Shown here piece after piece: positions 44,748-54,695 of a DNA stretch of 64,000 nucleotides. Numbering within the stretch: the stretch's first letter is position 1; the number at the start of each line of letters is the position of its first letter. The stretch spans positions 868,001 to 932,000 of the forward strand of contig NZ_LR216287.1 of NCBI RefSeq assembly GCF_900696045.1. The letters run 5' to 3'. The position numbers and the translations under genes were made by a program. Origin of the DNA: Candidatus Nitrosocosmicus franklandus (GTDB taxonomy: Archaea > Thermoproteota > Nitrososphaeria > Nitrososphaerales > Nitrososphaeraceae). Under the pieces are notes generated by a model. It was given only the letters and a program-made list of their open reading frames with translations, was not told where the DNA came from and made no database searches.

Positions 44748-45200
44748 ATGGCTAAGGTATTTGATGTTCCAGCAAACGAATTGATATCAAAATTAACGGA
44801 GCAGTTAAAAAAAGATAAGAAAATAAACCCTCCAGAATGGGCCAGCTATGTAAAAACTGGTCCACATGTAGAAAAAGTTCCGCAAAATAGAGACTGGTGG
44901 TATACAAGATGTGCTTCGCTAGCAAGAAAGGTATATTTACATGGCCCTATTGGAATATCAGATTTAAAAAGTTACTATGGAGGAAGGAAAAGAATAGGAT
45001 ATAATTTGGATCACCATAAAGATGCCGGTGGTGCAATAATTAGAAAGGCATTGCAACAATTAGAATTATCTGGATATGTTGAGAAGAAAGCAAAAGGCAG
45101 AGTTATATCAAACGAAGGGATGAAAAGACTAGACAGACTAGCCACTGAAATTTTCAAAGAAATATCAAAGATGGACAAGAATTTAGAACGATATGCATAA
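44748..45200 (+). CDS. rps19e: Ribosomal protein S19e
   Basis: This 150-aa protein has DVPANELISKLTEQLKKD, PPEWASYVKTGPHVEKVPQN, DWWYTRCASLARKVYLHGPI, YGGRKRIG and GGAIIRKALQQLELSGYVEK, all in S19e order. It is needed for small-subunit maturation. It is followed after 12 bases by the PDCD5-like gene, a usual archaeal pairing. Confidence 0.97.
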   Translation: MAKVFDVPANELISKLTEQLKKDKKINPPEWASYVKTGPHVEKVPQNRDWWYTRCASLARKVYLHGPIGISDLKSYYGGRKRIGYNLDHHKDAGGAIIRKALQQLELSGYVEKKAKGRVISNEGMKRLDRLATEIFKEISKMDKNLERYA

Positions 45201-45212
45201 GGGAGTATAAAC

Positions 45213-45506
45213 ATGTCAGGTCTACCTCAATCTCATCAACCCTCAGATGATGAAATCAAAAGACAACAGGCCGAAGCAGAGGCAATGAAGCAAAGAGCAC
45301 TAGCAATGTTGTTAGATTCGGAGGCAAGACAGAGACTTACAAATATAAAAATGGTAAAACCAGAACTTGCTGCAGCAGTCGAAAATTATCTAATTAATGC
45401 AGCTACTACAGGACGGCTAAATAGAGCCCTCACCGATAACGAGTTAAAACAAATACTGTTGACTTTACAACAACCAAAGAGAGAGTTTAAGATTAACAGA
45501 AGATAA
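45213..45506 (+). CDS. PDCD5-like DNA-binding protein
   Basis: This 97-aa helical protein has EAEAMKQRALAMLLDSEARQ, RLTNIKMVKPELAAAVENYL and LTDNELKQILLTLQQPKREF, the PDCD5/TFAR19 family. Archaeal members are small basic nucleic-acid-binding proteins of uncertain role. It follows S19e directly and is probably co-transcribed with it. Confidence 0.95.
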   Translation: MSGLPQSHQPSDDEIKRQQAEAEAMKQRALAMLLDSEARQRLTNIKMVKPELAAAVENYLINAATTGRLNRALTDNELKQILLTLQQPKREFKINRR

Positions 45507-45599
45507 CCTCAAAATTATCTTTCTTTCAAATTCAAAATCATAAAAAGTAATCTTCATTTTTGAGTTAACTATATTAAGCTTTTAAAACATCATCCTCCC

Positions 45600-46649
45600 A
45601 TGAAAGCAGCTGTATTTAGAGAGTATAACAAAGATCCAACCAAAGTAGTGAAAATTGAAGACATTGATGTCCCAAAAATAAGACCTAATGAAGTTTTGAT
45701 TAAAGTTGAATCTTCAGCATACAATTATAATGATTTATGGGCAATTTGGGGAGAGCCAGTTAAGACTCCACTTCCCCATATATCTGGAAGTGATGTTGCA
45801 GGAACAGTGGTAGAGATTGGTCAAGATGTGACCAAATTTAAAGTGGGAGATAGAGTTGTATCTCACTCTAACATGAGTTGCAGGGTGTGCGATCAGTGCA
45901 CATCAGGCAGAGAATATGATTGCAAAGAAAGACAAATTTGGGGATTTCAGACAGGTCCCTTATGGGGTGGATTTGCACAATATACACATCTTCCGGAAGT
46001 TAATGTTGCAAAATTGCCAGATAATGTTTCATTTGATGATGCGGCCGCGGTGTCTATGGTAGGCATGACATCCTGGCATATGCTGGTTGGACGTGCTAAA
46101 ATTATTCCAGGTCAAACCGTTTTGATAATGGGAGGAACAAGCGGAGTAGGAATGGTAGGGATTCAAATTGCAAAATTATACAATTGTAATGTAATTGCAA
46201 CAGCTGGAAATCAGCAAAAAATGGATAAATGTTTAGAATTGGGCGCGGATCATGTAGTAAATCACAGGGAAGCTGACTGGTACAAAAAGGTAAGAGAGAT
46301 CACAAAGAAAGAAGGCGTCGACGTCGTATTTGAACACATTGGAAAGAACGTATTTCCGCAAGAGGTAGGCTTACTAAAGATGGGCGGTACCCTCGTAGCA
46401 ACAGGAGCCACAACTGGGTATGATTCAACCATCGATTTGAGGTATTTGTTCTTTAAGGGAACTAATCTATTGGGCTCAACACAGGGAACCAAAGCAGAAT
46501 TAGAACAAGTAATTTATTGGACAAGCAAGGGAAAAATAAAACCAGTCATTCACACATCATTGCCCTTTTCCAATATGGTTGAAGGTCATGTGATGATGGC
46601 CGGTGCTGAACAGATAGGAAAGATAATTACTAATCCCCAAAAACTTTAA
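45600..46649 (+). CDS. Zinc-containing MDR alcohol dehydrogenase / quinone or acryloyl-CoA reductase type
   Basis: This 349-aa protein has the GroES-like domain GSDVAGTVVEIGQDVTKFKV, the structural zinc cluster CRVCDQCTSGREYDC (C-x2-C-x2-C-x7-C), and the NADP-binding loop MGGTSGVGMVGIQIAKLY. It reduces or oxidises a small carbonyl or enoyl substrate with NADP(H). Related MDR enzymes serve as crotonyl- or acryloyl-CoA reductases. That would fit the 3-hydroxypropionate/4-hydroxybutyrate cycle of ammonia-oxidising archaea, but the substrate is not readable. A CitE-like lyase follows after 29 bases. Confidence 0.88.
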   Translation: MKAAVFREYNKDPTKVVKIEDIDVPKIRPNEVLIKVESSAYNYNDLWAIWGEPVKTPLPHISGSDVAGTVVEIGQDVTKFKVGDRVVSHSNMSCRVCDQCTSGREYDCKERQIWGFQTGPLWGGFAQYTHLPEVNVAKLPDNVSFDDAAAVSMVGMTSWHMLVGRAKIIPGQTVLIMGGTSGVGMVGIQIAKLYNCNVIATAGNQQKMDKCLELGADHVVNHREADWYKKVREITKKEGVDVVFEHIGKNVFPQEVGLLKMGGTLVATGATTGYDSTIDLRYLFFKGTNLLGSTQGTKAELEQVIYWTSKGKIKPVIHTSLPFSNMVEGHVMMAGAEQIGKIITNPQKL

Positions 46650-46678
46650 TTTTTTATATTATTATCAGTATTAGCATA

Positions 46679-47575
46679 GTGGGAAGCTCAAGAAGTTTAA
46701 TTTTTATTCCAGGAAATAACCAAAGATTTTTAGAAAAATCCAAAGGCATTAATTCAGATATTATCTGCTATGACCTAGAGGATTCTGTCCCACTAGGAGA
46801 AAAAGATGTAGCTAGAAAATTAATCGCGACAAAAATTAGTGAATTGAATAGTAATAATATGGAAATAAATAATGAAAGAATTATAGCCGTAAGAACCAAT
46901 TCTCCCGATTCAAAGCAGATACCAGCAGATTTGGAAAAAATTGTAATTAAAGGAATAGATGCAATAGTTATACCAAAAGTAAATGAAGCATCACAAGTAT
47001 CAGAAATTTCAGATCTGATAGACAGACTAGAAGCTGAAAGAAATATTCCAAAAGGACATTTAAGGATTATGCCCTCAATTGAGTCAGCGTTAGGTGTGGT
47101 CAATACATTTGAAATAGCAAGGTGTAATGAGAGAATCTCTTCGGTGGTTTTTGGAATTTTCGATTTCCTTCACGATATGAAAATCGACAGTTATTACAAC
47201 GATATACAAGGTAGTTATGTTTACGGACGTAGTAAAGTACCTGTGGATGCAAGAGCGGCCGGTGTTGATTCTATTGATTGCATATGGCAAGACATCAACG
47301 ACACAAATGGGTTAATTAATGATCTAAAGTTAGGAAAAAACTATGGATATAATGGCAAGTGTATTATCCATCCATCTCAAATTGATCATGTTCACAGAGT
47401 ATTTAGTCCATCCAAACAGGAAATAGAATGGGCAAAAAAAGTTGTAGAAGCATTAGATAACGCACAAAAGAACCTAGCTACAGGTGCAGTAAAATTAGAA
47501 GGAAAAATGATTGACGCAGTTCACTATAAACAAGCAAAAAGGATTCTAGAATCCATTAAAGAAAATACAATATAA
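46679..47575 (+). CDS. HpcH/HpaI aldolase family, CitE-like (citrate/malyl-CoA lyase beta type)
   Basis: This 298-aa TIM-barrel protein has SLIFIPGNNQRFLEKSK, the acidic metal site YDLEDSVPLGEK, IVIPKVNEASQVSEI, RIMPSIESALGVVNTFEIAR (metal Glu), FGIFDFLHDM and a C-terminal KCIIHPSQIDHVHRVFSPS. Such enzymes cleave or condense malyl-, citramalyl- or citryl-CoA. Free-standing archaeal CitE homologs are usually not citrate lyases, so the acyl substrate is open. It has a GTG start and follows the MDR dehydrogenase, possibly in one transcript. Confidence 0.88.
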   Translation: MGSSRSLIFIPGNNQRFLEKSKGINSDIICYDLEDSVPLGEKDVARKLIATKISELNSNNMEINNERIIAVRTNSPDSKQIPADLEKIVIKGIDAIVIPKVNEASQVSEISDLIDRLEAERNIPKGHLRIMPSIESALGVVNTFEIARCNERISSVVFGIFDFLHDMKIDSYYNDIQGSYVYGRSKVPVDARAAGVDSIDCIWQDINDTNGLINDLKLGKNYGYNGKCIIHPSQIDHVHRVFSPSKQEIEWAKKVVEALDNAQKNLATGAVKLEGKMIDAVHYKQAKRILESIKENTI

Positions 47576-47618
47576 TAATTTAAAAATATTCAAATTATAT
47601 TTTCGTATCTTTGTACTT

Positions 47619-48287
47619 GTGTTTACAGGAATTACTGAATATTTGGCGGTAATAGAAGATATACGCGAATCAGCTATAAAGAAAACCGACCCCTCCAAGA
47701 CAGAGACAAAAAGCAAAGGCAACCATCATACAGAAATCACAATACGACTCTACAAATCAAAAGGCATCAAAATAGGAGATAGTGTATCTGTTAGTGGAGT
47801 TTGTTTAACCGTCGCCAAGTTGGATGGAACCAAAGCTACGTTTCAAGTCATTGATGAGACAATGAACAAGACAAATTTTAAAGATTTGAAAAAAGGAGAT
47901 AGGGTCAATATTGAAAGAAGCCTTAGAGTGGGCGGCAGGATAGAAGGTCATTTCGTATTAGGGCATGTAGATGGTACAGGCATAATCAAAAGGATCGAAA
48001 AAGGTGATAAAGGAAGTAAGTTAAAAGTGAAAATCCCCAGTAAGGAACTTTTACCATTCATAGTCAAAAAAGGATCTATAGCAATTGATGGAGTAAGCCT
48101 CACAGTTGTTGATGTTAAAAATAGCATAGTTGAAATAGCGTTAATACCACATACCCTTAAGAATACAACTTTAGGATTGAAGAAAATTGATGACAGTGTA
48201 AATATCGAGATAGATATATTAGCACGATATCTAACAAAGATCTACCAATATTCTGGTAATAACAAGAAAAATAGTAAGATATATTAA
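47619..48287 (+). CDS. ribC: Riboflavin synthase, trimeric alpha-chain type
   Basis: This 222-aa protein has two lumazine-binding repeats: MFTGITE to GDSVSVSGVCLTV, and GGRIEGHFVLGHVDGTGIIK to SIAIDGVSLTVVDV. It converts two lumazine molecules to riboflavin. It is the bacterial/eukaryal type, not the pentameric archaeal RibC of methanogens. An extra Lys/Thr-rich insertion lies at about 20-40. It has a GTG start and is the first gene of a six-gene riboflavin operon. Confidence 0.94.
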   Translation: MFTGITEYLAVIEDIRESAIKKTDPSKTETKSKGNHHTEITIRLYKSKGIKIGDSVSVSGVCLTVAKLDGTKATFQVIDETMNKTNFKDLKKGDRVNIERSLRVGGRIEGHFVLGHVDGTGIIKRIEKGDKGSKLKVKIPSKELLPFIVKKGSIAIDGVSLTVVDVKNSIVEIALIPHTLKNTTLGLKKIDDSVNIEIDILARYLTKIYQYSGNNKKNSKIY

Positions 48288-48310
48288 CTTTAATGAACAA
48301 GTAAAATCAA

Positions 48311-49024
48311 TTGACCAAAATATTCGAGGCAGTAACCTCCCTGAGAGAAGGAAATTTTGTTCTGATTCATGATGATGATAATCGTGAAGATGAAGTTGAT
48401 ATGGTAATTTCTTCACAACATGTAGCTCCGAGGCATATCGCCACAATGCGAAAGGATGCCGGAGGATTAATTTGTACGGCAATATCAAAAGAAATATCCA
48501 ATAAATTAGGATTACCATTCATCTATGACGTGTTGAATATTTTTGGAACAGCAAATAAGACGATATCCCTAATAAATCAGAATAGTTCTCCATATGGGGA
48601 TAAACCTTCCTTTTCAATATCACTCAATCATGTCGATACTTATACTGGTATTACAGACAATGATCGGGCGCTAACTATTTCATCGTTAGCAAATATTTGT
48701 TCAGAATTGGCCAAAAGTATAGAACTAAATGCTCAAAAAGCAATTCTCGAAAAATTTCAAAAGAGTTTCAGGGCTCCGGGACATGTACCAATACTTATTG
48801 CATCTAAAGAATTATTGAATGAAAGAAAGGGTCATACAGAGATGTCAATTTTTCTCACAAAAATAGCAAACATGACAAATGTAACGACCATATGTGAAAT
48901 GTTAGATCCATATAATTACAAGGCCCTTTCATACAAAGATGCAGTCGAATATGCCAAAGAGAACAATCTCGTAATATTAGAAGCAAAAGAACTAATAACA
49001 TATGCCAAATCATATGGAAATTAG
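48311..49024 (+). CDS. ribB: 3,4-dihydroxy-2-butanone 4-phosphate synthase
   Basis: This 237-aa protein has IHDDDNREDEVDMVISSQHV (acidic metal/substrate loop), RHIATMRKDAGGLICTAISK, VDTYTGITDNDRALTISSLA and FRAPGHVPILIASKELLNER. It makes the four-carbon unit of lumazine from ribulose 5-phosphate. The start TTG lies 23 bases after ribC. The next gene, ribH, begins 2 bases after the stop. Confidence 0.95.
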   Translation: MTKIFEAVTSLREGNFVLIHDDDNREDEVDMVISSQHVAPRHIATMRKDAGGLICTAISKEISNKLGLPFIYDVLNIFGTANKTISLINQNSSPYGDKPSFSISLNHVDTYTGITDNDRALTISSLANICSELAKSIELNAQKAILEKFQKSFRAPGHVPILIASKELLNERKGHTEMSIFLTKIANMTNVTTICEMLDPYNYKALSYKDAVEYAKENNLVILEAKELITYAKSYGN

Positions 49025-49026
49025 TA

Positions 49027-49467
49027 ATGGAGGTTAGAATAGGGATTGTAGTCTCCGAATTTAACAGCGAGATAACAATCCCAATGCTTGATGAAGCAAA
49101 GAGATTTGCAAATAATCATACAGATTTAAAAATATCTTTTGTTTGTTTTGTCCCAGGTGTGTTTGACATGCCAATCATGATAGAAGAATTGCTAAAGAAA
49201 AAGAATGTTGATGCTGTGGTTACGCTAGGAGCTATAATAAAAGGAGAAACTAGTCATGACAGATTGATAGCAAGAGTTACTGCCAAATCAATTAATGAAC
49301 TTTCTCTAAAATATAGGAAACCAATATCTTTAGGTATAACTGGACCAGACATGACGTTTGAGCAGGCCGAGGCCAGGATAATACCTGTAACACAACATGC
49401 TATCAATACGGCACTAGTCATGACAAAAAGACTACGGGAAATAAGAAATACCAAAATAAAAAAATAA
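49027..49467 (+). CDS. ribH: 6,7-dimethyl-8-ribityllumazine synthase
   Basis: This 146-aa protein has GIVVSEFNSEITIPMLDEAK, VPGVFDMPIMIEELLKK, VVTLGAIIKGETSHDRLIAR (conserved KGxTxHD) and ITGPDMTFEQAEAR. It condenses the RibB product with the ribitylamino pyrimidine. It assembles as pentamers or icosahedra in the cytoplasm. Its position between ribB and arfA shows that both branches of the pathway are co-transcribed. Confidence 0.95.
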   Translation: MEVRIGIVVSEFNSEITIPMLDEAKRFANNHTDLKISFVCFVPGVFDMPIMIEELLKKKNVDAVVTLGAIIKGETSHDRLIARVTAKSINELSLKYRKPISLGITGPDMTFEQAEARIIPVTQHAINTALVMTKRLREIRNTKIKK

Positions 49468-49508
49468 GAGACCAAGAACAACTGTAGTGGTAAAAGTAGT
49501 AGATTAAG

Positions 49509-50300
49509 TTGACATGTCAGATAACAGTTATAAAATTAGAAGGTTATGGTAAGTGGACTCTAAAATTAGGAAGCGACAGAGAACACCAGTTGCAAATGCT
49601 GCAGGCATTTATGTATGCAGATCTACAAAAATACTTTTCAACAAAGAATGGTCTAGTATTTTCCAATCGATTCGATGAGTTTGTTGCAGTTACGAATCAA
49701 ATTTCGTTACCAGATCACAAGGAAATTCATGACAAAATTTCAAAGAAGAACAGCGAAATTGAAATTTCAATGACCATAGGAATTGGAAAAACACCGTTAG
49801 AATCTGATAAAAAAATATCAAAAATTAAAAAGGATAAAAAAAATCAAGTATTTGAGAACATTTTTGCACTTGAGCAAGAGCATTTACAACTCCAAGAAAG
49901 GAATATATCAAATTTACAATTACCTGAGAAAAACCTGAAAATAATACATATTGATGTAGATAGTTCTACCGCTTTGATCAAAAATCTTTCCACATACGAA
50001 ATTACAAATCTTTTATTAAAGCTCCATTTGAAAATTTCAGATCTGTTCTTAAAGGAAGAAAGCTTGACTTTCTTTTTAGGAGGAGACAACTTTATGGTGG
50101 TTGCCAGGTCCGGTCTTGATATCAACAAAATTACCTCAACAATCGATCAACTAATCAAATCATCAGGGATAAAGCTAAACTGTGGTATTGGTAATGGTAA
50201 TAATGCTAGGACAGCCGCCAAGTATGCTACAAAGTCACTAGATCAGATAAGAGAGTACAGGAAAAGTGGTAAAACATTAAATGTTTTTGAATCGAATTGA
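49509..50300 (+). CDS. arfA: GTP cyclohydrolase III (archaeal ArfA)
   Basis: This 263-aa protein has QITVIKLEGYGKWTLKLGSD, the REHQLQMLQAFMYADLQKYF helix, LVFSNRFDEFVAVTNQIS and the C-terminal half FFLGGDNFMVVARSG, GIKLNCGIGNGNNARTAAKY. It has the duplicated nucleotidyl-cyclase-like fold of ArfA. It opens GTP to a formylamino pyrimidine, the first step of archaeal riboflavin and F420 synthesis. The start is TTG. The next gene starts inside its stop codon (TTGA overlap). Confidence 0.93.
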   Translation: MTCQITVIKLEGYGKWTLKLGSDREHQLQMLQAFMYADLQKYFSTKNGLVFSNRFDEFVAVTNQISLPDHKEIHDKISKKNSEIEISMTIGIGKTPLESDKKISKIKKDKKNQVFENIFALEQEHLQLQERNISNLQLPEKNLKIIHIDVDSSTALIKNLSTYEITNLLLKLHLKISDLFLKEESLTFFLGGDNFMVVARSGLDINKITSTIDQLIKSSGIKLNCGIGNGNNARTAAKYATKSLDQIREYRKSGKTLNVFESN

Positions 50301-51715
50301 AAAAAACCATCATTAAAAATTCCCAGATTCTGTATGGAGAAGAACTAGAAGTAATTCAAAAAGGAGCAATTATTATTAACGAACATGGAATAATAGAAAA
50401 AGTAGTAAGAAAATCGAAGGAACTAGAATATGATATGTTGGGATCTAGTTCGACTGCAACAAAGACAGAGATCAGTATTATTGATGCAGAAGGCTTTGTG
50501 ATCATTCCAGGTTTCATAAATTCTCATACCCACATAGGAGATTCAATTGGAAAAGATATTGCGGCCAATTTGGATTTAAATAAAAGAATACACCCTCATT
50601 ATGGTATCAAAAAAACCATCCTTGAAAAGACTCCTGTTAATTATTTAATACAAATGATGAGAAATGCTGCCCTATCTATGCTTTACAAGGGCATAACTAC
50701 ATTTGTCGACTTTAGAGAAGGAGGTTTGGAAGGTATAAATTTGATGCAAAAAGCAACTAGAGATCTCCCAATAAAAAGAATTGTTTTAGGCAGGATTGAC
50801 TTTAATGATAAATATTATTACAAATCTACTGAAGGATATAGAAATTCTAATAATAAACAGGGCAACTCAACTGGAAATAACAAAATCCCATCTTTTTATC
50901 AACAAAAAATGCATAAAAATCGAATAAAAAACAAGGAGAACAAGAAGGAGGAACAAGAAAGGAACATAATCGACATAGGTAATAAAATATTAGAAAAATG
51001 CGAAGGCTTTGGGATAAGCGGAGCTAATGAATATACAGACTTAATGTTATCATTATATAGAAAAATAGTGCATGATATAAACTTAAAAAATTTAAACACA
51101 AATAGATCGAGGAAGTCACTTCTCGCAATTCATGCAGCCGAAGCACAAAGTACTGTAGAAGATTCCATAAAAAAATACAAAAAGACTGAAATCAAGAGAA
51201 CATTACAACTCCTAGATCCCGATATTTATATTCATGTTACTAACCCCACCAAATCGGATTTACGGTTATTACATAAACGTAGAAAAAAAATCATCGTTTG
51301 TCCCAGAGCAAACGGGATCTTAGGAGTAGGATTAGGACCAATTAAGAAAATGCTTGAATTGGATTTCTTATTGGGAATAGGAACAGATAACATCATGCTC
51401 AATTCTCCTGACATGTTTAAGGAAATGGATTTCCTGATAAAGAGTCAGAGAGCAATTGAAAAAAATACCATGTTTCTTAAACCCAAAGATATCTTAAAAA
51501 TGGCTACCGTAAACGGAGGAAAAATTTTTAATCTAAATACAGGATGCATTAAGAAAGGGTATTTAGCAGATTTATTATTTATAGATAGATATGATTTGGA
51601 CTTGTATCCACTATTTGATCTACATATGGCCTTAGTGAGTAGATGTACAGAAAAACAAGTGAAAGCAGTAATGATAAATGGCAAATTGACCAGCGGAAGT
51701 ATCCCTTTTGACTAA
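50297..51715 (+). CDS. Amidohydrolase-superfamily deaminase candidate in the riboflavin operon
   Basis: This 472-aa protein has the SAH/ATZ-type amidohydrolase plan: PGFINSHTHIGDS (metal His 77 and 79), LLAIHAAEAQSTVEDS (metal His), IYIHVTNPTKSDLRLL (His) and LLGIGTDNIMLNSPDMF (metal Asp). A Lys/Asn/Glu-rich insertion lies at about 170-225. Family members hydrolytically deaminate purines, pterins or S-adenosylhomocysteine. It is translationally coupled to arfA in front and overlaps or abuts arfC behind. That makes it a strong candidate for the pyrimidine deamination or deformylation step of this pathway, though this is inference from context only. Confidence 0.85.
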   Translation: MKKTIIKNSQILYGEELEVIQKGAIIINEHGIIEKVVRKSKELEYDMLGSSSTATKTEISIIDAEGFVIIPGFINSHTHIGDSIGKDIAANLDLNKRIHPHYGIKKTILEKTPVNYLIQMMRNAALSMLYKGITTFVDFREGGLEGINLMQKATRDLPIKRIVLGRIDFNDKYYYKSTEGYRNSNNKQGNSTGNNKIPSFYQQKMHKNRIKNKENKKEEQERNIIDIGNKILEKCEGFGISGANEYTDLMLSLYRKIVHDINLKNLNTNRSRKSLLAIHAAEAQSTVEDSIKKYKKTEIKRTLQLLDPDIYIHVTNPTKSDLRLLHKRRKKIIVCPRANGILGVGLGPIKKMLELDFLLGIGTDNIMLNSPDMFKEMDFLIKSQRAIEKNTMFLKPKDILKMATVNGGKIFNLNTGCIKKGYLADLLFIDRYDLDLYPLFDLHMALVSRCTEKQVKAVMINGKLTSGSIPFD

Positions 51716-51731
51716 AACAGGTAAACTCAAC

Positions 51732-52445
51732 ATGAGAGTGATACTAAACGCAGCAGCTAGTATTGATGGCAGAATCGCAACCTGCAAAGGAGATACAAAG
51801 ATATCTTCAGAATCGGATCTCCGACGAGTACACATATTGCGATCAAAAGTGGATGCAATTTTGGTAGGTATTACTACTGTAATCAAGGATAATCCCATGC
51901 TAACTGCTAGAAGGGTACAAAATAGAGAAAAAATATCCGAGACTAAAGACATGTCAAGAACAAACCCCATACGCATTATAGTCGATGGAAAAGCAAAGAT
52001 TTCTCTACATTCAACCATAGTTAAGACTGCTGATCGAATAGAAACCAGGATTGCAGTTACCAAGAATGCACCACCAAGAAAATTGAAACAGTTGGAAAAA
52101 TTAGGCTTGAAAGTTATGGTAATAGATCAGGATCCAGAAAAGCAAGGTAGAGTTGATCTAAAAAAACTGTTTGATTATCTAGAGCGTGATGGAATATCTA
52201 AAATTCTCGTAGAAGGAGGAGGTGAGATTAATTGGTCTTTAATAAAGAACAATCTTTTCGATGAACTAATTGTTACTATATCACCATTAATAATTGGCGG
52301 AAAAAACGCAATTTCATTGGTCGGAGGAAAAGGATATGACACAATAAACGAGTGTGCAAAGATAAAATTAACTAAGGTGCAGAAAAAAAATACTGGCGAA
52401 ATAGTACTATATTACAAAAACATAAAAAAAGATAAAATTAAGTAG
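51732..52445 (+). CDS. arfC: 2,5-diamino-6-ribosylamino-pyrimidinone phosphate reductase
   Basis: The protein of about 237 aa has MRVILNAAASIDGRIATCKG, HILRSKVDAILVGITTVIKD, NPMLTARR, NPIRIIVDGKAKIS and ISKILVEGGGEINWSLIKNN, the RibD-C/ArfC reductase fold. It reduces the ribosyl side chain with NADPH. The deaminase domain of bacterial RibD is absent. ATG 51732 with AGGT upstream is preferred to the in-frame TTG at 51708. It is the last gene of the operon and convergent with TFE. Confidence 0.93.
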   Translation: MRVILNAAASIDGRIATCKGDTKISSESDLRRVHILRSKVDAILVGITTVIKDNPMLTARRVQNREKISETKDMSRTNPIRIIVDGKAKISLHSTIVKTADRIETRIAVTKNAPPRKLKQLEKLGLKVMVIDQDPEKQGRVDLKKLFDYLERDGISKILVEGGGEINWSLIKNNLFDELIVTISPLIIGGKNAISLVGGKGYDTINECAKIKLTKVQKKNTGEIVLYYKNIKKDKIK

Positions 52446-52450
52446 TGAAT

Positions 52451-52966
52451 TTATCTTACTGAATCTGTGCTTAATTGCTCAATCTTATATCTGAGAGCAT
52501 CCTTTAGCTTGCTATTATCGACCATATTGAGAGGTTCTTTGCAATTGGGGCACTTGAAAAATAACTCTATAGCATAGTCAAATTTAATCCTGTCACATGC
52601 GGAATTGCCGCAGTGGTAAAATTCTGACGATTCTTCATATTCCAGTCTGTTTTGTAATCTTTCCAGAATTTTCCTCTTTTGATTATCGATAAAATTATCA
52701 ACGTGATCTCTTTTTGCCCTCCATCGATAGACAAACCAGCCCTTCTTCTCATCTTTGACCCGTATACCCGTTATCAATGCTTTTCCAAATAGGTCGTAGA
52801 GCACTTTGCGAATTATATTGATTCGAAGGCCAGTAGAAAGAGCTATTTCCTCATCTGTAGAGTCTTCGGCCTTTAATAATGCTTTAGCAACTTGTTGATA
52901 TTCGTCTCCGCCAATCAGAGATGCAATCTTTATAAAAGGATCTTCACTGCTGTCAACATTTTGCAT
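52451..52966 (-). CDS. tfe: Transcription factor TFE-alpha
   Basis: This 171-aa protein has an N-terminal winged helix (STDEEIALSTGLRINIIRKV, LYDLFGKALITGIRVKDEKK, GWFVYRWRAK) and a zinc ribbon (YHCGNSACDRIKFDYAIELF, FKCPNCKEPLNMV) joined by a long helix. This is the archaeal TFIIE-alpha homolog, which aids promoter opening by RNA polymerase. It is 5 bases from convergent arfC. Confidence 0.95.
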   Translation of the reverse strand: MQNVDSSEDPFIKIASLIGGDEYQQVAKALLKAEDSTDEEIALSTGLRINIIRKVLYDLFGKALITGIRVKDEKKGWFVYRWRAKRDHVDNFIDNQKRKILERLQNRLEYEESSEFYHCGNSACDRIKFDYAIELFFKCPNCKEPLNMVDNSKLKDALRYKIEQLSTDSVR

Positions 52967-53129
52967 GAAAGTAATATAACATCACATACAAAAGATATAT
53001 AGTTTTCCAAGTAGGAAAACCACCCAAAGAATTATGTTAAATTTATTCGACACATATCAACTGAGATGTATTATTAGCTAACTTTTAATACTACAAGCTT
53101 AAGCGCACGATTTTCCATCATACCGCCCA

Positions 53130-53600
53130 GTTACGCTAATTTAATGATTGAAAGAAGACAAGCATTGTCCACAAGTAGGTCATTTAAAGAGCACCACTGG
53201 GTTATTAACAACTCGATTTAGCCGATACTCGGTAATAAAGAGATCAATGATTTGATTTTCTTTGAAATAATTTTCTATGAACACAAACTCGTCAATATCG
53301 ATAGCTGAGAAGTTGTAATTTAGTAATTTTTATGAGAAAAGTTTCCTCTTTTGCAATATTGTTGTAGAACCTTTTAGCAAGCCTATTTATGTCGATAGGC
53401 GGTATCATTAGGTTAATGACACCAATGGTTGAATTTAGTTAAACCATAATATTAGAGATAAATCTGCAAAATTAGCATCATTTGAAGTGACTAGGATATT
53501 ATTGACAAAATCAGCCTAATTTCATTTGCTACAGACAGGTGAGCAACAACCAATTCTACTCCAATTGCCATAAAGAAAAGTATTATTATGAAAATACATT
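53130..53600 (-). pseudogene. Decayed coding remnants, possibly PIN-like toxin and zinc ribbon
   Basis: Two minus-strand pieces are protein-like. One at about 53500-53560 reads ADFVNNILVTSNDANFADLS, close to the core of DUF5615/PIN-like proteins (VTxDxDFxxL), preceded and followed by stops. Another at about 53150-53330 reads AIDIDEFVFIENYFKENQII, DLFITEYRLNRVVNNPVVLF and, after a stop, PTCGQC. No intact gene is left. The identification is tentative. Confidence 0.35.
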
Positions 53601-53786
53601 AATCCAAAGTATTTTTCCCCCACTACCTCTTACCAAACAATATCTTATCGCATAACTCCGACCTATAGTATTAAAATGGCACACCAAAAAAGAACATAAT
53701 CATTAAATCCATACTACCATCATGGAAACAAACAATGAAGTAAATGACAAATCAACCAATAAATCAAAATACAAATAATAAATTGA

Positions 53787-54695
53787 TCAGTTTCCAAGTC
53801 CAGAATTTATTTCTTCTAAAAAGTCATATATCACAGAGTAATCCATCTCTCTTTTATCAGGTTTCTTATTTGCGGCTCTAAATAATTGTTGAGACATACT
53901 AGTCATTGGTAATACCAATCCTAGATCATGAGACATATTCATTACTAGATCGATATCTTTTAACATGTTCTTTAGAAAAAATGAAGGAGGGTATTCGTGG
54001 TTTATCATCATCTGGCCTTTACGTTCGCTTATCCCTGTCTTAAGCTTAGTAAGATTAAGTATCTTTAAATATAGATTAGGATCTATGCCGCTGTGTTTAG
54101 CCAAGATTAAGCCCTCAGAAAGAGCTAGAGTAATTATAGCGATATTCAGATTTAGTGCTAACTTTACGCTATTTGATAATCCGTTGATTTTTCCCAAGTA
54201 AAATACATGTTTAGAGAAATATTCCAATACAGGGTAAACTCTTTCATAAGATCCCTTGTTTCCGGATACAAGAGATATTAGTTCTCCTTTCCTTGCATCG
54301 CTCGGTCCACCCATTACCGGAACGCTCAAAAATGAAAAACCCTGTTTCTTGTCTAACATATCTGCGCATTTAGCAGATTGTTTTGGAGTTACAGTAGTAC
54401 AATCTATTATAACTACACTGTTGTTACTACTATTTATGATACCATTTTCACCAACCAACACGTTCCTCAAAGAGTCATAATTGGTAACACATGTAATTAC
54501 GAACTGTGAATGATCCGTCAATGAACATGGGGAACTAAATATCTTTGCACCTTGTTTTTCTAGACCTCCGAGTTTTGTTTTGTTCCTTGCATAGATATTT
54601 ACTTTGAGATGGCTAGATAGCAATCGTTCTATAATGCTTCTACCTAACATTCCTACTCCTATTACGCCAATAGATATATCGCTATGCGTAGACAT
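53787..54695 (-). CDS. Beta-hydroxyacid dehydrogenase (3-hydroxyisobutyrate dehydrogenase family)
   Basis: This 302-aa protein has the NAD(P) loop IGVIGVGMLGRSIIERLL, the substrate-binding segment FLSVPVMGGPSDARKGELIS and the catalytic lysine segment GLSNSVKLALNLNIAIITLA. It ends in the usual all-helical domain. It oxidises a 3-hydroxy acid or reduces the semialdehyde. Related enzymes act on tartronate semialdehyde, succinic semialdehyde or 3-hydroxypropionate. The exact substrate is open. It stands alone. Confidence 0.9.
   Translation of the reverse strand: MSTHSDISIGVIGVGMLGRSIIERLLSSHLKVNIYARNKTKLGGLEKQGAKIFSSPCSLTDHSQFVITCVTNYDSLRNVLVGENGIINSSNNSVVIIDCTTVTPKQSAKCADMLDKKQGFSFLSVPVMGGPSDARKGELISLVSGNKGSYERVYPVLEYFSKHVFYLGKINGLSNSVKLALNLNIAIITLALSEGLILAKHSGIDPNLYLKILNLTKLKTGISERKGQMMINHEYPPSFFLKNMLKDIDLVMNMSHDLGLVLPMTSMSQQLFRAANKKPDKREMDYSVIYDFLEEINSGLGN

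Follow-up and report, generated by a model that had tools for sequence, protein, structure and literature searches.

A probable pyrimidine deaminase of the archaeal riboflavin and F420 pathways, encoded between arfA and arfC

Background

What is the role of an amidohydrolase gene that lies between arfA and arfC in a run of riboflavin genes of Candidatus Nitrosocosmicus franklandus? For the deamination step, where the archaeal pathways to flavins and F420 have a gap, PMC8305020 (in extract) offers predictions only; citing Rodionova 2017, the same extract describes three gaps in haloarchaeal riboflavin synthesis and candidates for two of them. The archaeal order of events is said to be reduction first and deamination second (PMC3403918, in extract). 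A preliminary description of the locus had proposed that the amidohydrolase carries out either a deamination or a deformylation of the pathway. Here we examine this proposal using family models, active-site residues, gene order and co-occurrence. The window is the whole stretch of 64,000 nucleotides that was analysed (contig NZ_LR216287.1), and coordinates refer to it unless a locus is named; other genomes and loci are designated by G and L numbers.

The riboflavin gene run

On its + strand the window carries the run ribE-ribB-ribH-arfA-amidohydrolase-arfC, and a TFE-alpha gene follows arfC on the - strand. The genes of the run are:

47619-48287, + strand: ribE, bacterial-type riboflavin synthase (TIGR00187, 200.6 bits; NF006767, 207.1 bits; both above cut-off)
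48311-49024, + strand: ribB (TIGR00506, 209.8 bits, above cut-off)
49027-49467, + strand: ribH, lumazine synthase (TIGR00114, 113.4 bits, above cut-off)
49509-50300, + strand: arfA, GTP cyclohydrolase III (PF05165 (GCH_III), 171.4 bits, above cut-off; NF002587, 161.4 bits, below its cut-off of 306)
50297-51715, + strand: amidohydrolase (PRK07213 family), proposed 2,5-diamino-6-ribitylamino-pyrimidinone 5'-phosphate deaminase (NF005552, synteny, co-occurrence)
51708-52445 (longest ORF), + strand: arfC, 2,5-diamino-6-(ribosylamino)-4(3H)-pyrimidinone 5'-phosphate reductase (TIGR01508, 204 bits, above the cut-off of 186.45)

The amidohydrolase ORF encodes 472 amino acids from a TTG start, and the ORF coordinates bear out the four-base overlap described earlier, as its initial TTGA is shared with the 3' end of arfA. 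At the other end, the longest arfC ORF (TTG at 51708) overlaps the amidohydrolase by eight bases, while the in-frame ATG at 51732 leaves a short gap instead; either way, the statement that the amidohydrolase abuts arfC is a fair one. The word 'fused', which was also used, is not, as the genes are merely adjacent and there is no protein fusion. arfC matches bacterial RibD in the reductase half only (positions 143-334 of 343), in agreement with the remark that the deaminase domain of RibD is missing from it. The operon of riboflavin enzymes can likewise be followed from ribE to arfC, but the claim that it contains only such enzymes may go too far: genes for a zinc dehydrogenase (45600-46649) and an HpcH/HpaI aldolase (46679-47575) lie close upstream of ribE, also on the + strand, and the transcription unit may thus extend beyond the riboflavin genes. 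By eye, both of these genes apparently also precede ribE in G257 (L135:7107-8499), which suggests a wider conserved block. The riboflavin synthase of the window (47619-48287) is of the bacterial RibE type, and in similar runs G080 and G148 have the archaeal RibC type. An Rfam scan of positions 45000-54000 returned nothing at the gathering score. When the amidohydrolase was used as a query against its own 2.84-Mb genome, the sole match was itself.

Family and active-site residues

The protein matches Pfam Amidohydro_1 (E = 9.5e-44) and exceeds the curated cut-off of NF005552 (PRK07213, named 'chlorohydrolase'; 337.3 against 294 bits). By contrast, it falls far short of the cut-offs of models for deaminases that act on SAH/MTA, guanine, 8-oxoguanine and aminofutalosine: it scores 69.7 against 779 with the SAH/MTA deaminase model (NF012037), 63.1 against 375.4 with the guanine deaminase model (TIGR02967) and 96.4 against 522 with NF005557. 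The ArfB model NF033501 was absent among the 25 of 37 families listed for the protein. The solved chains nearest to A2, a profile built from 29 relatives of the amidohydrolase, included AtzA, TM0936 and its relatives, an MTA/SAH deaminase, and guanine deaminases. A contig search with the protein gave four loci: three close relatives, labelled Nitrososphaeraceae (two) and Nitrosopumilus sp. (one), and a 27% partial match on a Bacteroidia contig.

The residue pattern of the base deaminases of the amidohydrolase superfamily, which we take to be COG0402-like, comprises HxH, H and D as metal ligands, HxxE, and a second catalytic H; it is present in 22 of 22 aligned sequences. H77, H79, H279, E282, H313, N339 and D364 are common to the family and to all 11 controls, which are non-family amidohydrolases from the same phylum. 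Further positions are specific to the family. The features of the protein, with counts over the 22 aligned sequences and the 11 controls, are:

50525-50533, + strand: H77-T78-H79, first metal-binding motif, both H invariant in the 22-sequence alignment
50540-50542, + strand: D82, family-specific (family 22/22, controls 0/11)
50609-50611, + strand: K105, invariant in the family (22/22; K in this column in 3/11 controls)
50717-50719, + strand: E141 in the motif DFREGG, family-specific (family 22/22, controls 0/11)
about 50822-50974, + strand: lineage-specific low-complexity insert, approximately residues 176-226, absent from relatives of about 370-420 amino acids
51131-51142, + strand: H279 to E282, HxxE, metal ligand and catalytic acid/base; H279 and E282 are invariant and align with H and E of AtzA and TM0936
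51233-51235, + strand: H313, active-site histidine, invariant in the alignment
51305-51307, + strand: R337 in the motif CPRxN, family-specific (family 22/22, controls 0/11; W in L149)
51386-51391, + strand: D364, metal ligand, and N365, family-specific (family 22/22; N365 in 0/11 controls)
51641-51643, + strand: R449, family-specific (family 21/22, controls 0/11)

Exceptions within the family are the W at R337 in L149, and D (L129) or K (L153) in place of R449. Over 126 best-match loci, a tally that includes some genomes more than once, the set D82/K105/E141/R337/N365/R449 is complete in 110 and has one change in three; the remainder are G134, with two changes, the 11 controls and one fragment. 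Lower-scoring relatives that fall below the NF005552 cut-off carry the same signature, and outside the host's order this cut-off was passed in the 200-genome set (see below) by G079, G169 and G242 only. The insert at about 50822-50974 is rich in lysine and asparagine, and the shorter relatives are without it. An AlphaFold model of the amidohydrolase with three relatives was poor (pLDDT 46.6) and was not used, so that what we say of the pocket is drawn from the alignment.

Gene order

The arrangement arfA-amidohydrolase-arfC, on a single strand, was found in 101 of the 105 genomes of the host's order whose loci were read, a count which excludes the fragments G010, G028 and G260; G063, seen by coordinates only, fits. 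A first set comprised 54 loci. Two came from other lineages, and the other 52, made up of the best-scoring loci and five more, each represent a different genome of the order. All 52 genomes of the order had the arrangement on one strand, and the two other loci (L026, L034) had amidohydrolase-arfC. In a second set of 53 further genomes of the order, which took in most of the matches left over, 49 had it; in the other four (L223, L240, L247, L253) the contig breaks off close by and one neighbour is visible, which is arfC in three and arfA in one. Spacing is wider in a few places: the gap between amidohydrolase and arfC reaches 1.1 and 1.6 kb in L011 and L249, and 402 bases separate arfA from the amidohydrolase in L259 (G286). 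The arrangement is not a matter of chance but a real and tightly conserved feature, and the conservation in relatives that the preliminary description had looked for is there.

Outside the order, gene order was assessed by coordinates in 43 carriers of the family. The amidohydrolase adjoins arfA in ten of these (G148, G096, G088, G179, G227, G185, G233, G141, G127 and G155) and arfC in seven (G181, G187, G163, G136, G169, G079 and G242). G080 has the run arfC-arfA-ribB-ribC-ribH-amidohydrolase, with the amidohydrolase last. The gene lies about 1.8 kb from arfA, divergently, in G104 and G215, about 11 and 8 kb from arfC in G120 and G072, and not near arfA or arfC in G173, G177, G183, G197, G207 and G146; neither arfA nor arfC was detected in G067. 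In all 14 genomes of a Sulfolobus-like family (f12) it is more than 200 kb from arfA and arfC or on another contig. Linkage to arfA or arfC therefore recurs in distant lineages, save in these 14 genomes, where co-occurrence and residues are what speaks for a deaminase because the gene is unlinked.

Co-occurrence with arfA and arfC

We counted the three genes in 200 genomes of the phylum, requiring at least 100 bits for an arfC match and at least 268 bits for a member of the amidohydrolase family; the best genome below the latter threshold scores 172.8 bits. arfA was found in 71 genomes (omitting G203, whose weak match is below cut-off), arfC in 84 (omitting weaker matches) and the family in 74. 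Among the genomes with both arfA and arfC, 69 of 70 carry the family, and outside the host's order 38 of 39 do so. The exception, G134, has a diverged match of 159.5 bits which keeps D82, K105, E141 and N365 and is without R337 and R449. The association is strong by Fisher's exact test (P = 2e-46 overall, 4e-31 outside the order), but these values are descriptive only, as they overstate independence among related genomes, and profile A2, which includes rows from 26 of the 74 carriers, also bears on them.

Departures from joint presence occur in both directions. Five carriers lack the arfA and arfC pair (G163, G067, G169, G146 and G079): arfC is absent in G146 and G067, and arfA is undetected in G163, G067, G079 and G169. 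Conversely, 12 of the 84 genomes with an arfC-like gene have no strong family member, and 11 of the 12 are also without arfA. The reductase of such genomes may serve another pathway. Four of the 12 (G140, G154, G190, G208) have weak matches, of 23-31 bits, to the deaminase half of RibD. L176-L182 (G220, G175, G154, G208, G190, G140 and G112) hold an ArfC-like reductase in genomes without arfA and the amidohydrolase. Read by eye, the arfC-like loci of these seven genomes and of G110 and G134 show no obvious riboflavin cluster.

A search of 121 relatives with the amidohydrolase gave no match in 24. We applied the RibD model to 20 of the no-match and nine weak-match relatives and found a match to the reductase half (ArfC-like) in G286 only, where the family gene adjoins the ArfC-like gene; nine other tested relatives gave weak matches only, of at most 40 bits, to the deaminase half. 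Joint absence may reflect single losses or missing contigs, because the genes are neighbours. G026, from the same family as the host (2.5 Mb in one contig, 99% complete), gave no match to the amidohydrolase and none to RibD/ArfC.

Proximity to FO-synthase genes

Several loci outside the order place the amidohydrolase near genes of F420 synthesis. G169 and G079, in which no GCH_III match was found, have the run amidohydrolase-arfC-cofG-cofH, and the run in G242 reads amidohydrolase-arfC-PF02633-cofG; the arfC-amidohydrolase genes of G181 and G187 face a convergent cofG-cofH pair encoded on the opposite strand. All of these FO-synthase genes score above cut-off (cofG 426-463 bits, cofH 508-542 bits). 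FO is made from tyrosine and 5-amino-6-ribitylaminouracil, the latter being common to riboflavin synthesis (PMC8498797, in extract). Since FO synthesis consumes this compound, the amidohydrolase belongs to the trunk of both pathways; the gene runs would place its action at or before the intermediate common to riboflavin and F420. Directly upstream of the run in G169 is a gene for a DUF447 / flavin-reductase-like protein (L137:2905-3549), and by eye a DUF447-like ORF (L180:544-1224) also lies near the arfC-like gene of G190.

Deamination or deformylation

Two steps were put forward for the protein, and the genomes contain other candidates for each to a different extent. For deamination, bifunctional RibD exceeds its cut-off in none of the 200 genomes. 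The best matches to its deaminase half, of up to 45.5 bits, are in genomes other than the host's own, where a single match of 22.7 bits falls on a 173-residue PF00383 (CDA-type) protein that is nearest to ComEB, although below the cut-off of the ComEB model. A gene only loosely conserved, alongside a complete arfB and an established deaminase at other loci, had been named as the outcome that would speak against the proposal; instead, the one CDA-type match of the genome is ComEB-like, and conservation is tight.

For deformylation, the amidohydrolase might itself be a formamide hydrolase that acts on the ArfA product in place of canonical ArfB. Amidohydrolases can cleave amides, the gene directly follows arfA here and adjoins it in the ten genomes outside the order, and the canonical ArfB model NF033501 exceeds its cut-off in none of the 200 genomes. 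However, ArfB presumably belongs to PF02633, and a PF02633 (creatininase-family) protein is encoded by all 31 members of the order among the 200 genomes, with one match each in 30. The preliminary description had asked whether relatives lack arfB and a known deaminase: neither RibD nor canonical ArfB exceeds its cut-off in the set, and PF02633 proteins are present. The host has one intact copy (L055), which is its sole NF033501 match (29.6 bits against 180), and a second at G000:C1:590732-591459 (L056, L057) with in-frame stops, apparently a decayed gene. Moreover, a PF02633 gene adjoins arfC in G242 and arfA in G136, adjoins and converges on the amidohydrolase in G080, and lies within about 1.5 kb of arfC in eight f12 loci, and the genomes with these arf-linked copies also have the family amidohydrolase. 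A formamide hydrolase would, in addition, have the residue set of base deaminases and leave the deaminase slot empty. We therefore regard this reading as improbable.

The deformylase slot is probably filled by the PF02633 protein. A creatininase-annotated protein, BrbF, is a proven deformylase of the ArfA product and is described as being without sequence similarity to ArfB (PMC9478397, in extract). Six loci of the order with the intact PF02633 gene were read. In five (L055:1477-3209, L157, L158, L159 and L161) the gene comes immediately after a PurU-like gene, and in the sixth, L160, a PurU-like match lies about 1.8 kb away; the PurU-like (formyl-tetrahydrofolate deformylase) ORF of the host scores 254 bits with PRK06027, above cut-off. 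This neighbourhood gives a mild hint of formyl chemistry. The assignment is indirect, because canonical ArfB exceeds its cut-off nowhere in the set and because, when 48 PF02633 proteins were placed in a tree, the six from the order grouped in a supported clade of their own while the arf-linked copies did not form a single clade.

Taken together, 'deaminase' is much better supported than 'deformylase'. The deamination half of the original proposal is strongly supported by the base-deaminase residues, the absence of any RibD match above cut-off, the co-occurrence and the runs with arfC and FO-synthase genes, and the deformylation half is made less likely by the PF02633 proteins and their coexistence with the amidohydrolase where they are arf-linked.

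Discussion

We consider it highly likely, from comparative sequence evidence, that the amidohydrolase deaminates the pyrimidine intermediate in archaeal riboflavin/F420 synthesis. Because in archaea deamination is said to come after reduction and PF02633 probably deformylates, the best candidate substrate is the deformylated and reduced product of ArfC, and the best candidate step is deamination at C2. A putative metal ion held by H77, H79, H279 and D364 would activate a water molecule, E282 and H313 would assist its attack, and the water would displace the C2 amino group of 2,5-diamino-6-(ribitylamino)-4(3H)-pyrimidinone 5'-phosphate, presumably yielding 5-amino-6-(ribitylamino)uracil 5'-phosphate and ammonia. 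K105, R337 and R449 may help to bind the phosphate or the ribityl chain. Guanine deaminase performs the same chemistry on the same 2-amino-4-oxo-pyrimidine pattern.

We also think it likely that deamination in the archaeal riboflavin/F420 trunk is generally the work of the family with the D82-K105-E141-R337-N365-R449 signature, as a fold-level replacement of RibD/Rib2, including in the lineages in which the gene lies outside the operon and in the two that have no detectable arfA, where the gene is found beside arfC and FO-synthase genes.

Two further readings leave deformylation aside. The protein could be a common deaminase of SAH/MTA/5'-deoxyadenosine or guanine that lies in the operon by coincidence, and it does belong to the same branch of the superfamily and has weaker matches to those models. 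This is very unlikely, as its scores are far below the curated cut-offs, D82, E141, R337, N365 and R449 are all missing from the 11 control amidohydrolases, which do have the catalytic residues, and an incidental position leaves both the synteny (101 of 105) and the co-occurrence (69 of 70) unexplained. It is equally hard to credit another role in the pathway, such as repair or salvage of damaged intermediates, with an unrecognised protein as the deaminase: the reaction is a prediction and a deaminase of other sequence could exist, but near one-to-one presence with arfA and arfC, the catalytic residues and the FO-synthase runs fit a core step better.

The concept of such a deaminase is probably already in print as a prediction. 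Table 6 of PMC8305020, in the extract available, lists HVO_1235 as an arfB candidate and places a further prediction, HVO_2483/MJ0699, after arfC; the step is not named there, and its place in the table suggests that deamination is meant. NF005552 matches were obtained in ten control genomes, M. jannaschii and H. volcanii among them, with two controls above cut-off, as a result at genome level. Our literature search found no published assay of the reaction of the family, and no earlier account of the residue signature, the phylum-wide co-occurrence or the FO-synthase runs, some of which Rodionova 2017 may contain. What the genomes add is that they point to one gene per genome, a likely substrate and candidate residues. 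If the assignment is true, a new name could be given to the genes that many archaea carry under the annotation 'chlorohydrolase' or 'amidohydrolase', and the deamination was solved in archaea with a protein fold unlike that of bacteria and fungi.

Among known systems, the HVO_2483/MJ0699 prediction (Rodionova 2017, in PMC8305020) is likewise a candidate for a gap in the archaeal pathway. The window protein is a member of PRK07213 (NF005552), a family named chlorohydrolase for which the evidence presented here points to a deaminase of the flavin/F420 pathway. The formamidases ArfB and BrbF act in the same pathway but are of a creatininase-like family, and the PF02633 protein is encoded separately in the host genome. 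The TM0936-type proteins, presumably SAH/MTA deaminases by activity, the guanine deaminases and AtzA have metal-binding and catalytic residues that align with those of the window protein, whereas D82, E141, R337, N365 and R449 mark the family (none in the 11 phylum controls). The N-terminal domain of RibD and fungal Rib2 catalyse, in this pathway, a step of the kind proposed here, and arfC of the window corresponds to the reductase half only; the RibD/Rib2 deaminase domain, however, has the CDA fold and is unrelated to the amidohydrolase.
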